A stretch of DNA of 64,000 nt from assembly GCA_017437065.1 (NCBI GenBank), contig JAFSBX010000076.1, positions 214,466 through 278,465 of the forward strand, in the 5' to 3' direction. Positions 52,959 to 56,789 of this stretch are shown here, one piece after another (positions within the stretch are counted from its first letter, which is position 1; each line of letters starts with the position of its first letter). The notes under the pieces were generated by a model. The model worked only from the letters and a program-made list of their open reading frames with translations, had not been told where the DNA came from and did not search any database. The position numbers and the translations under genes are program-made. Source of the stretch: Lachnospiraceae bacterium. GTDB lineage: Bacteria; Bacillota; Clostridia; Lachnospirales; Lachnospiraceae.

Positions 52959-54731
52959 CTAAACTGCAAACTGAGCAGTGTATAGGTTGTAATACACACC
53001 TTTCTTGTCGAGTAATTCCTGTGCAGTTCCTTCTTCAATAATTGTACCTTTATCTACCACAAAAATGCGGTCTGCCTTTTGGATAGTAGATAATCTATGG
53101 GCAATAACGAAGGAAGTACGTCCTTTGAGCAAATTCTCAATACCGGATTGAACAAGAAGTTCGGTCTGTGTGTCGATACTGGAAGTAGCTTCGTCTAAAA
53201 TAAGGATTTTGGGCATGGATACCATAGTTCTTGCAAAGGCGAGTAACTGTTTCTGACCGATGGAAAGTCCGCCGCCCCGTTCAGACAGTTCGGTATCATA
53301 GCCTTTTTCAAGTTTCATAATAAAATCATGGGCATTTACTGCTTTGGCGGCAGCGATGATTTCTTCATCAGTAGCGTCAAGTTTACCATAACGGATATTT
53401 TCCTTAATGGTACCTGAGAAGAGGAAATTGTCCTGTGTCATAATCCCCATCTGTTTGCGAAGGCTTTCAATGGAAACCTTTTTGATATCATGTCCGTCAA
53501 TGCTGACAGTACCTTCCTGCACATCATAGAATCGGCTGATTAAGTTGACAATGGTGGTTTTTCCTGCACCGGTAGGTCCTACAAGAGCAATTGTTTCTCC
53601 CGGCTTAATCTGAAAACTTACGTCATTTAATACTTTCGTATTTTCATCATAAGCAAAGGAAACTTTATCAAAAGTGACCTGTCCGTTGATTTCAGGTATT
53701 TCTGTAACATCTGTTGCATCACTGATTTCTGCTTCTGTATCCAAAATTTCAAAAATACGCTCCGCACCGGCAATATTTGTAATAATCTGATTATAAAAAT
53801 TACTTAAGTTATTAATCGGTTGCCAGAACATGCTGATATAGGAACTGAATGCAATAAATGTACCAAGAGAAACTTTATCCGTTCCTAATATTACGATACC
53901 TGTAAAATACAGGCAGATACATCCAAGTCCCCAGTTAAAATCAATGACAGAGCCGAAGGCATCACTTAAACGGACAGCCTTTAAGAAAGAACCACGGTGT
54001 TCTTTTAGCAGCTCATCAAAAGTTTCTTCTGTTTCATCTTCTGCGGTAAAGCTTTGTATAATTCGCATTCCGGACATATCTTCGTGAATGAAAGCATTTA
54101 AATTAGATGCCTTTTTACGAAAAGTCTGCCACCTCGGATGTGCATGTGTTTCAATAAAAAACATGCCGAATGCCATAATTGGAATGCTTGCTAAGGAAGC
54201 TGCCGCAAGAGGGGCATTTTTAGTAAACATAATGGCGACTACTGCAATAATCGTCAAAAAATCGGGAATTAACGTAGTAACACAGTTACTAAGTACATCC
54301 TTTAAAGAGTTTATATCTCCGATAATACGGGAAAGTATCTTTCCGGTAGGCCGGCTGTCAAAAAAGTGAAAATCCAATGTCTGGATATGGGAGTATAACT
54401 CCTGTCGTATGGTTACCAAAATGTTATTACATACTTTTGCCATTACATACATTCGGATTTTAATGGCAAATACAACAAGCAGATTTAATACAAGAGCAAT
54501 ACCAATCAATTTTATGAGTCCGGAATAGTCGGAAGTTCGTATATGCTTATCAATAGCCGATTCCATAATCAGAGGATTCACAAGGCTGATACATAAGCAA
54601 AAGAGCATAATAAGTAATACTCCGGCAATTTCTTTTTTATAGTCAAGCAGATATTTGAATAAGCGGATTAAAGTTTCACGCTTACTTTTTTCTACATGCT
54701 GCTCATCATCTTTAAATGAATTTATAGGCAT
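52959..54731 (-). CDS. Heterodimeric multidrug ABC exporter subunit, BmrD/YheH-like
   Basis: 590 residues. Six-helix transmembrane domain (about 25-315) with SRIIGDINSLKDVLSN, then nucleotide-binding domain: Walker A GPTGAGKTT, Q-loop MTQDNFLFSGT, signature LSIGQKQ, Walker B ILILDEATSSID with the catalytic glutamate intact, and AHRLS. It begins 4 nt after its partner gene (AAGGAGG site), and the two should form one exporter with one canonical and one degenerate ATP site. Substrates cannot be read from sequence. Confidence 0.9.
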   Translation of the reverse strand: MPINSFKDDEQHVEKSKRETLIRLFKYLLDYKKEIAGVLLIMLFCLCISLVNPLIMESAIDKHIRTSDYSGLIKLIGIALVLNLLVVFAIKIRMYVMAKVCNNILVTIRQELYSHIQTLDFHFFDSRPTGKILSRIIGDINSLKDVLSNCVTTLIPDFLTIIAVVAIMFTKNAPLAAASLASIPIMAFGMFFIETHAHPRWQTFRKKASNLNAFIHEDMSGMRIIQSFTAEDETEETFDELLKEHRGSFLKAVRLSDAFGSVIDFNWGLGCICLYFTGIVILGTDKVSLGTFIAFSSYISMFWQPINNLSNFYNQIITNIAGAERIFEILDTEAEISDATDVTEIPEINGQVTFDKVSFAYDENTKVLNDVSFQIKPGETIALVGPTGAGKTTIVNLISRFYDVQEGTVSIDGHDIKKVSIESLRKQMGIMTQDNFLFSGTIKENIRYGKLDATDEEIIAAAKAVNAHDFIMKLEKGYDTELSERGGGLSIGQKQLLAFARTMVSMPKILILDEATSSIDTQTELLVQSGIENLLKGRTSFVIAHRLSTIQKADRIFVVDKGTIIEEGTAQELLDKKGVYYNLYTAQFAV

Positions 54732-54734
54732 ATT

Positions 54735-56468
54735 TTAAGCCTCCTTTCCAAGCAGGAAATCCCCATATTGGGAAAGATACGTTTCGTAATAACGTCCTTT
54801 TTTTTCCAAGAGTTGTTCGTGGGTTCCTTTTTCAACAATTTTACCGTTTTCGAGAACCAGGATTTCGTCTGCGTTTCTTACAGAGCTGATGCGGTGAGCA
54901 ATGATAATTTTTGTCGTGTCTTTCAGCTCGTTTAATGTTTGTTGAATGAAATGCTCCGTTTCCATATCTAAAGCGGAAGTGGAATCATCCAATACAAGAA
55001 TCGGATTTTTTTTCGCAAGTGCACGGGCAATACTGATACGCTGTTTCTGTCCGCCGGAAAGTCCTACGCCACGTTCACCAATTACTGTTTCATATTGCTT
55101 TTCCATGCGCTCAATAAATTCGCTTGCCTGAGCATCTTTGGAAGCAGATTTTACAATCCGGCTGTCAACGGTTTCGCGTTTTCCCAGTTTGATATTTTCC
55201 GTGATGGTATCAGAAAATAAAAATACATCCTGCATAACAAGTGATATATTGCTGCGTACCTGCTTTAACGTCAAGTCTTTTATATTTATATCATCTAAAT
55301 AGACAGCACCATCGGTTGCATCATAAAGTCTTTGCAAAAGATGAATGATGGAAGTTTTACCGGCACCGGTGGCGCCCATAATTCCAAGTGTCTTACCCGG
55401 TTCCACACAAAAACTGATATCACTTAAGATTTCATACTGGTCAGCCTTATGGAAACCTACATGTGAAAATTCGATTTTCCCCTGTACTTTGTCTAAGACA
55501 ACAGGATGTTCAATTTCTGCAATGCTTGGTTTTTCTGCATATATATTTTTCAGCTTTTTGTTAGAAGCTATCGCAGAAGAGAGGCTGTTGGTAAGCCAGC
55601 CCAGCATTTCCATAGGCCATACAATGTTGGAAGAATATTCAACAAAAGCACTTAATTCACCCAGTGTCATCGTGTTTTTGATTACGAAGTAACCGCCGGA
55701 TAGTAAAGTGATTAAAGGCAGTATTTTTGTAATCACAGAAAAATATGGGTAATATTTTACGAATACCTTGGATTGTTTCATATTCAAATCATAGTATTTT
55801 TTATTGTGTGTTAAAAATTTCTGTATTTCGTATTTTTCCCGTGCAAAGGCTTTTACCGTGCGTACACCTGCCAGATTTTCTTCGGCAACGGTATTGAGTA
55901 CAGCGTTTTCTTCACTGATTTCTTCATAGACAACCCCCAGCTTTTTTTCCATGACAACAGCAATGAAACCACAGATAATCATGGCAATCGTAGGAATAAT
56001 GGCAAGCTGCCAGTTCAGATGATACATAAAATACAAAATAATCAAAGTATGTATAACAACTTCCATAATCAGCATACCGACAAAACCTACGGCATCCCAG
56101 ATGCGGTCGATGTCATCTTTAATACGTGCCATCAGTTCGCCGGTATTTGTACGGTCAAAAAAATCAGCACTTAATCCCTGAATATGTCGGAATAAGTCTT
56201 TTCGCATTTTGCCGGAGATGGAAGATGCACCATAGTCAAATAGAAATTCTTTGGTGTATTGGAAAATGCAACGACCTGTACCGATGCAGAAAATTCCCAG
56301 TAGCAAATACGTTAGTTTTTCTGTTTCGCCGCCTACAATTACCTCATCTACAATCCGCTTCGTAAGCTGTGGGGCGTAGAGATCCAGTGAGACAGAAATA
56401 ATCATGGAAAGCACGGCAAAAAGATAGATAAATTTGTGTTTCCAAATATAACCTGATATTCTTTTCAT
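54735..56468 (-). CDS. Heterodimeric multidrug ABC exporter subunit, BmrC/YheI-like
   Basis: About 577 residues. Exporter fold with MARIKDDIDRIWDAVGFVGM in the transmembrane part; Walker A GATGAGKTS, signature LSGGQKQRISIARA, and Walker B ILVLDDSTSALD, in which Asp replaces the catalytic Glu. This degenerate site is the mark of the BmrC/LmrC/TM287 half of heterodimeric exporters. ATG 56468 has AGGGGGA upstream; an in-frame ATG at 56504 lies in the terminator region. Preceded by a leader peptide and terminator, so expression is probably inducible. Confidence 0.92.
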   Translation of the reverse strand: MKRISGYIWKHKFIYLFAVLSMIISVSLDLYAPQLTKRIVDEVIVGGETEKLTYLLLGIFCIGTGRCIFQYTKEFLFDYGASSISGKMRKDLFRHIQGLSADFFDRTNTGELMARIKDDIDRIWDAVGFVGMLIMEVVIHTLIILYFMYHLNWQLAIIPTIAMIICGFIAVVMEKKLGVVYEEISEENAVLNTVAEENLAGVRTVKAFAREKYEIQKFLTHNKKYYDLNMKQSKVFVKYYPYFSVITKILPLITLLSGGYFVIKNTMTLGELSAFVEYSSNIVWPMEMLGWLTNSLSSAIASNKKLKNIYAEKPSIAEIEHPVVLDKVQGKIEFSHVGFHKADQYEILSDISFCVEPGKTLGIMGATGAGKTSIIHLLQRLYDATDGAVYLDDINIKDLTLKQVRSNISLVMQDVFLFSDTITENIKLGKRETVDSRIVKSASKDAQASEFIERMEKQYETVIGERGVGLSGGQKQRISIARALAKKNPILVLDDSTSALDMETEHFIQQTLNELKDTTKIIIAHRISSVRNADEILVLENGKIVEKGTHEQLLEKKGRYYETYLSQYGDFLLGKEA

Positions 56469-56502
56469 TTTAATTTTCCCCCTAAATATTATTTTTTTGC
56501 AC

Positions 56503-56534
56503 AAAAAATAGCCGTAGTAAAACTACCACGGCTA
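56503..56534 (-). terminator. Attenuator terminator in the exporter leader
   Basis: On the minus strand TAGCCGTGGTA (56524-56534) pairs with TACTACGGCTA (56509-56519) around GTTT, with one wobble, and TTTTTT follows (56503-56508). It stands between the leader peptide and the exporter genes. A GTAGTA segment upstream (56549-56554) could pair with TACTAC of the 3' arm as an antiterminator. Confidence 0.88.
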
Positions 56535-56588
56535 ATTATATGCAACGATACTACCTGTAATAAAAGCGAAAATCCGAATCAAAATCTT

Positions 56589-56687
56589 TTATATAAGCAG
56601 TGTCCTGCAAAAAGCATCAGAGGTAATTTTACATGATAAACTATGTTCAATTGTTAAAGTCATTTTTAATTTCGTTAAGTTAATCAT
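56589..56687 (-). CDS. 32-residue leader peptide of the exporter operon (BmrB-like position)
   Basis: Small open frame too short for routine gene calling. AAGGAGG ends 7 nt before its ATG, an ideal ribosome site. The peptide begins MINLTKLKMTLTIEH and ends in CRTLLI. It lies 54 nt before the terminator. In Bacillus bmrBCD, translation of the bmrB leader controls an adjacent terminator: ribosome stalling by antibiotics lets transcription reach the exporter genes. The same layout here suggests the same mechanism; sequence similarity to BmrB is not claimed. Confidence 0.7.
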   Translation of the reverse strand: MINLTKLKMTLTIEHSLSCKITSDAFCRTLLI

Positions 56688-56719
56688 AGTTTTTACCTCC
56701 TTTTCTTTTTTATTTTTTC

Positions 56720-56739
56720 ATTGAAGACCTGTCTTCAAT
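56720..56739. repeat. 20-bp palindrome in the exporter leader
   Basis: ATTGAAGAC-CT-GTCTTCAAT is a perfect 9-bp inverted repeat about 15-35 nt after the expected start site. It may be a repressor site or an mRNA hairpin upstream of the leader-peptide ribosome site. Confidence 0.7.
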
Positions 56740-56760
56740 TGCTTAACTTGACGTAACATC

Positions 56761-56789
56761 ACAATACGCTTTGAAAATTATTTTGTCAA
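56761..56789 (-). promoter_or_regulatory. Promoter of the leader peptide-exporter operon
   Basis: On the minus strand TTGACA (56784-56789) and TATTGT (56761-56766) have 17-nt spacing, predicting a start near 56754 and a leader of nearly 290 nt. Confidence 0.8.

Follow-up and report, generated by a model that had tools for sequence, protein, structure and literature searches.

The logic of ribosome-mediated attenuation is already known from vmlR, lmo0919, cplR, bmrBCD, hflXr and attenuated ABC transporter genes. For the vmlR leader of Bacillus subtilis the Shine-Dalgarno sequence (SD) and the start codon are described as essential, and a ribosome stalled on the upstream ORF (uORF) prevents formation of the anti-antiterminator (PMC9226507). 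The translated uORF and the triad of anti-antiterminator, antiterminator and terminator are shared with the locus analysed in this study. In vmlR, however, the uORF has 3 codons (MIN), the SD is single-stranded before SL-1 and the target is an ABC-F factor (PMC9226507), whereas here the SD is itself a predicted helix strand, the 32-codon leader is read through the anti-SD and the target is a membrane exporter. The attenuators of lmo0919/VgaL (Rli53) in Listeria and of cplR in Clostridioides difficile likewise use short uORFs, of 3 codons, and control ABC-F genes, unlike the present locus (PMC8079631, PMC10201436). A figure legend of the cplR article aligns uORF and anti-SD elements between CplRs and Lmo0919, so that an anti-SD in such leaders has, in that legend, already been described (PMC10201436). 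Neither the very short uORF nor the ABC-F target of these three systems was found here, the leaders being of 24 to 54 codons in 57 compared loci and the target genes encoding ABC_membrane and ABC_tran domains.

In bmrBCD of B. subtilis, a leader ORF of 53 codons precedes an ABC exporter pair as in our locus, three alternative stem-loops are described, induction is by 50S-targeting drugs, and the role of the anti-anti-terminator is called unclear (PMC4191407). The bmrBCD terminator lies inside the bmrB coding region, whereas our stem begins 55 nt past the leader stop, and the portion of the article consulted mentions no SD:anti-SD helix (PMC4191407). An earlier note on this DNA had proposed the bmrBCD logic. 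Translated-leader attenuation before an ABC exporter was retained from that proposal, but bmrBCD is the looser analogue because the terminator stands outside the leader, and the vmlR, lmo0919 and cplR type is nearer. Three further systems are similar by description. Rli59-lmo1652 of Listeria has a small ORF and a premature terminator before an ABC transporter and responds to several translation inhibitors (PMC8079631). In hflXr (rli80) of Listeria the attenuator precedes a paralogue of a ribosome-associated factor, as do some elements described below, but its leader of 14 aa carries an RLR motif (PMC6310831). A survey of premature terminators reported "ABC-leaders" as 205 candidate attenuated ABC transporter genes, with one group preceding a multidrug export operon in lactobacilli; the likeness to our element is again one of description (PMC2965389). 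In the window (the whole stretch of 64,000 nucleotides from a Lachnospiraceae genome) Rfam gave no match at gathering score and, in permissive mode, four matches far below it. Among the papers listed in a search of freely available journal articles, we recognised none that describes this leader.

The target genes (Table 1) are two adjacent half transporters with a TMD and an NBD each. We take LVLDDSTSALD in subunit A to be a degenerate catalytic site. One degenerate beside one canonical motif is typical of heterodimers in which a single ATP site is degenerate, and by this reading of the motifs the pair is a heterodimeric ABC exporter of the TM287/288 and BmrCD type. Among sequence matches to solved structures single-chain ABCB pumps were on top for the subunits; of the two-chain heterodimers listed, TM287/288 (3qf4, 4q4j) scored slightly to clearly above BmrCD (7m33, 8t1p). 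The named relatives of the exporter among the best 80 of 341 were mostly from Lachnospiraceae. A domain search identified a cation-efflux gene upstream of the locus.

Table 1. Coordinates of the leader, its putative switching segments and the exporter genes in the window.
Feature	Position	Strand	Basis
Predicted promoter TTGACA-17-TATTGT (TTGACA 56789-56784, spacer 17 nt, TATTGT 56766-56761)	56761..56789	-	10/12 consensus matches; direct reading and scan
Imperfect palindrome ATTGAAGACAGGTCTTCAAT, 9-bp arms around mismatched AG	56720..56739	.	genome scan, L020 comparison
seg1, leader SD GGAGGTAA, 5' strand of predicted anti-antiterminator helix	56693..56700	-	sequence and comparison
Leader ORF, 32 codons (MINLTKLKMTLTIEHSLSCKITSDAFCRTLLI), ATG 56687 to TAA 56589, peptide not conserved	56589..56687	-	comparison
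seg2, anti-SD AAAATTACCTCT within leader ORF, partner of seg1 or seg3	56619..56630	-	alignment, folding
seg3, GGTAGTTTT, upper 5' arm and loop of terminator, seg2 partner in antiterminator	56519..56527	-	alignment
Intrinsic terminator, 11-pair stem 56534-56509 and T6 56508-56503	56503..56534	-	scan, alignment, 90 both-side changes
Exporter subunit A, 577 aa, ABC_membrane and ABC_tran, LVLDDSTSALD after Walker B; ATG at 56468, downstream of terminator	54735..56468	-	ORF and domain search
Exporter subunit B, 590 aa, ABC_membrane and ABC_tran, canonical LILDEATSSID	52959..54731	-	ORF and domain search

The 17-nt-spaced promoter, the 32-codon ORF with its ribosome site, the 11-bp terminator with T6 and their placement before an exporter pair, all read by the earlier note, were borne out at the positions in Table 1. 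The promoter lacks significance against shuffles: in 1.5 kb scanned, 8 promoter-like sites were found vs 6.3 expected, and therefore it is not significant by itself. Terminator-like sites numbered 3 vs 0.8 expected in the same scan. The case that we make is built on comparative evidence. In the same-genus locus L020, TTGACA...CGTATTGTG was present at the position matching the window promoter.

Two other parts of the earlier reading fared less well. The 20-bp palindrome, located between promoter and leader as a possible operator or 5' hairpin, is present but imperfect and not conserved: the genome holds no other copy with fewer than 3 mismatches, the palindrome was not found in L020, and its core GAAGAC-N2-GTCTTC occurred in one other (L021) among 110 upstream regions. 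It was rejected as an operator or switch part and probably lies outside the conserved switch. The segment GTAGTA at 56554-56549, suggested as a competitor, does exist and could pair with TACTAC of the terminator; it was rejected since by eye it is absent at that place in L020. The attenuator anatomy of the earlier note was kept, while its choice of switching parts was probably wrong, the conserved parts being the leader SD, an anti-SD in the 3' part of the leader and the 5' arm of the terminator.

For the comparison 110 exporter loci were collected: of the 341 confirmed, the 80 best were taken, and a set of 150 whole genomes, 31 of which matched, contributed another 30, the own locus among them. 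One of the loci, L053, belongs to Eisenbergiella tayi DSM 26961, a cultured relative. Removal of near-duplicates left 100. A permissive rule without a null found a ribosome binding site, short ORF and terminator in 88 of these. On inspection by eye, some of the 12 loci missed by the rule carry the element, for example L042, L064 and L071, and others, for example L032, do not; in at least L107 the rule chose the wrong terminator. The alignment A1 was picked from the 88 loci by L-number (up to L112), seg1:seg2 duplex p≤0.1, a fitting motif and an element length of up to 235; the resulting 41 loci and L135, L138 and L139 made 44, and 40 were kept after leaving out L070, L076, L099 and L107. L020 fell outside A1 (seg1:seg2 p 0.365). 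The filter on seg1:seg2 pairing biases the helix count, the foldings and the partner-swap test for seg1:seg2; the co-change count of SD tail and seg2 and the open-frame count are independent of it.

What follows on the segments, on their complementarity and conservation and on the open frame was obtained by computation. Conserved across the 40 loci were AAAGGAGGTAA immediately 5' of the start codon, then, 47-87 nt inside the ORF, GAAATTACCTCC, and finally a terminator 5' arm and loop that mostly read GGTAATTT. GGAGGTAA is complementary to TTACCTCC, and AAATTACC to GGTAATTT; thus seg2 has two partners, of which the second is also a terminator arm. The same holds in the window, where seg2 is complementary to both seg1 and seg3. 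An intrinsic terminator between promoter and gene is accompanied, in sequence and comparison, by a mutually exclusive antiterminator, the equilibrium preference being for the terminator.

Pairing was evaluated against 200 dinucleotide shuffles per locus for the 88 loci. The best duplex of seg1 beat the shuffles at p≤0.05 in 64/88, the terminator-arm duplex in only 20/88; in the window the values were p 0.04 and p 0.745. The best seg1 site overlapped the best terminator-arm site in 58/88 loci vs 21.5 expected from random placement, an overlap that is not independent because SD and terminator arm are alike in sequence. In A1, seg2:seg3 paired in 95.3% of 300 cells, which 0/500 shuffles reached (slid controls 12.9-68.0%), and the terminator paired in 86.1% of 517 cells with 90 changed on both sides (0/500 shuffles); six rows, for which the foldings gave P 0.00, have its arms out of register. 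For seg1:seg2, with 11 pairs tried, pairing was found in 76.5% of 438 cells, a value reached by 60/500 shuffles and approached by slid controls (up to 69.3%, at -3). Its core is almost invariant in A1, and covariation there says little.

In the full set of 88 loci, seg2 does vary together with the SD tail. TTACCTC was found in 41 of the 53 loci with GGAGGTAA and CTGCCTC in none, while in the 12 loci whose SD has the GGAGGCAG tail, CTGCCTC occurred in 5, TTGCCTC in 3 and TTACCTC in 1, so that seg2 was altered toward the tail in 8/12. True partners in A1 also beat swapped ones (1/10,000 permutations as good for seg1:seg2, 0/10,000 for seg2:seg3), with a median rank of the true partner of 9.5/40 and 11/40, respectively; shuffles and permutations ignore the shared ancestry of the loci.

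Open reading of the leader was examined in loci chosen only by GAGGTA and TTACCT at 40-120 nt from each other, with no ORF required; this left 57 of the 100 loci. The leader frame had its start codon in place and was open through seg2 in 57/57, vs 5 and 2 for the +1 and +2 frames. Although related loci are not independent, this is strong evidence, drawn from sequence, that reading through seg2 is under selection. A translated leader ORF that overlaps the switching segments is thereby indicated by comparison. Gaps in 17 close pairs were multiples of three in 5 of 6 cases, which carries little weight because four of the five stem from pairs sharing L058.

When the nascent RNA was folded up to the terminator 3' arm, the 1:2 helix formed in 39/40 A1 loci. 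With the region from the SD to the early codons masked to mimic a stalled ribosome, 2:3 reached P≥0.5 in 25/40 (0/40 unmasked) and stayed below 0.5 in 15/40. In the window the nascent folds gave 0.96 for 1:2 when free and 0.92 for 2:3 when masked. In full-length equilibrium folds the terminator won in 33/40 masked and 34/40 unmasked, the other six rows being those out of register; when masked, 2:3 held in 2/40 and the window terminator reached 0.97. Since equilibrium folds favour the terminator, the switching decision would have to be kinetic.

Taken together we consider it likely that the element is a ribosome-mediated transcription attenuator that turns on while a stalled ribosome sits on the leader SD; that the leader is translated, that transcription terminates, how the element switches and what induces it are our inferences. 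Comparison of loci gives good support to the earlier proposal of a translated-leader attenuator before an ABC exporter of heterodimer type. Judged by the promoter, transcription would start near 56755, and seg1, the leader SD, would emerge first. With no ribosome on seg1, it would pair with seg2 about 60 nt into the leader, seg3 would be free for seg4, and transcription would end at the T-run (OFF). During normal translation, ribosomes would pass over and mask seg2 and the terminator would form all the same (OFF). If a translation inhibitor held the ribosome at the start or early codons, seg1 would be covered and seg2 free for the emerging seg3; seg2:seg3 would then delay the loop-proximal part of the terminator and the polymerase would reach the exporter genes (ON). 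Induction by drugs would follow from this scheme. Antitermination would need to act within the short time in which the polymerase crosses the T-run, and this kinetic antitermination is the weakest step of the modelled mechanism. A NusG-type TTNTTT motif was not found between seg2 and the terminator in the window.

The element was also sought elsewhere. Of 397 family genomes, 8 gave a total of 10 matches in a pattern search (reversed control 4); a class-wide sample gave 3, two of them in the own genome (reversed control 5). The reversed control also matches, so the pattern alone is no proof, and the 10 family matches were kept on the basis of the following genes. Outside the pattern search, an own-genome hit (L002), which contained only an SD-like stretch, was treated as chance and rejected. 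In viral contigs 7 pattern matches were found, none convincing by the covariance model (best E 0.18). That model, built from A1 and run with stricter filters by which some elements may be missed, found 38 elements in 34/397 family genomes at E≤0.05, of which 9 were A1 members and 29 new. At E≤0.01, 31/397 family genomes had an element vs 3/381 class-wide, one of the three being the own genome and the other two weak. A DNA search in relatives matched 15 of 61 genomes, mostly over short stretches; besides the own genome, only the place in G001 was recognised as a counterpart.

The target gene of each element was taken as the longest downstream ORF. Thirty of the 38 elements preceded homologues of the window exporter (43-100% identity) and three (L168, L170, L173) preceded other proteins for which BLAST alone indicated a partial likeness to ABC proteins; L152 and L171 had no clear target, L152 being followed by a short ORF and then an NFACT gene, and L174 lay at a contig end. 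Two targets were single cases, a GNAT protein (L177, own genome) and an RsgA paralogue (L146). The former is a 393-aa double-GNAT acetyltransferase, and the switch before it (G000:C81, L138/L177) is the second in the own genome. Its scores reached none of the NCBIfam cut-offs for RimI or for streptothricin acetyltransferases. The RsgA protein passed the TIGR00157 cut-off. The two element-bearing genomes checked, G154 and G001 (L139), carry the RsgA-like gene as a second copy, in addition to an RsgA that scores higher. With the RsgA paralogue as query, 30/205 family genomes matched, and together with L139 the element preceded the gene in 4 of 31 loci, in four genera; the model identified three of these (L139, L146/L190, L203), and the fourth, L191, was identified by the SD/anti-SD pattern and not by the model. 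As the elements of L139 and L190 (the same as L146) are in A1, only L203 and L191 are new.

RsgA is a 30S-maturation factor. The recurrence of an RsgA-like GTPase among the targets, together with the identity of seg1 as the SD itself and leader peptides that vary widely between groups, would suit a different use of the same RNA anatomy, in which ribosome availability or initiation rate (starvation, 30S shortage) is sensed rather than antibiotics and crowding of 30S subunits on the SD frees seg2. We regard this as unlikely: a frame open through seg2 in 57/57 loci fits elongating ribosomes that clear seg2 and not a pure initiation sensor, and 30/38 elements stand before the exporter family.

The stalled-ribosome attenuator that we prefer was also weighed against a bmrB- or erm-like leader, in which the ribosome would be arrested by its nascent peptide at a single codon in the presence of a single drug. 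Translated-leader logic is indeed shared with bmrBCD (PMC4191407) and with the RLR-motif leader of hflXr (PMC6310831). In our loci, however, the leader peptides differ widely between groups and by eye share little beyond what seg2 forces, seg2 falls in two reading frames (29/40 and 11/40 in A1), lengths range from 24 to 54 aa, and by eye no RLR motif is present in the window peptide, which makes arrest by a specific peptide improbable. Given the divergent peptides and the two frames, the peptide seems less important than the RNA and its translation as such. Since no peptide is conserved, what the switch reads is probably SD occupancy and not one arrest sequence; it should then respond to several inhibitors. 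In the 57 loci the leaders contained Asn at 2.07x and Pro at 0.12x of expectation under a null that ignores dinucleotides; this bias may be mere avoidance of C-runs.

An ordinary constitutive terminator after a small-protein gene would agree with the stable terminators of the full-length folds and with a window terminator-arm duplex no better than shuffles, but it is very improbable given that seg2-seg3 complementarity is conserved and partner-specific over 40 loci, that seg1 and seg2 change together and that the element recurs before unrelated genes.

What sets the attenuator apart from the described systems is a long leader read through its own anti-SD, no conserved peptide, an exporter target and the recurrence before GNAT and RsgA-like genes. 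It is a tentative, rather doubtful extension of this that Lachnospiraceae possess a switch sensing occupancy of its own SD, independent of nascent peptide and hence of drug class, and that exporters, a GNAT enzyme and an RsgA paralogue, the last perhaps a new ribosome-protection factor, make up a small translation-stress regulon under this switch. If the attenuator reading is right, the element would be a sequence-recognisable marker for genes that gut Lachnospiraceae switch on under translation stress, through which resistance or ribosome-rescue factors not yet recognised, the RsgA paralogue for instance, could be found. The locus is also a clean natural test case for the question whether ribosome position can be sensed by an attenuator independently of the peptide.

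Two further observations were made. The distant exporter loci L113-L129 gave a mixed picture: of 15 evaluated, the sites overlapped in 10 and the terminator-arm duplex had p≤0.05 in 7; these loci often show pairs in the style of GGAGGCAG and CTGCCTC, and by eye seg2 may pair with the terminator 3' arm instead. In L152 (element at 1500) a short ORF of about 54 aa, by eye, with its own GGAGGTAA SD is followed about 550 nt downstream by an NFACT (RqcH-like) gene.
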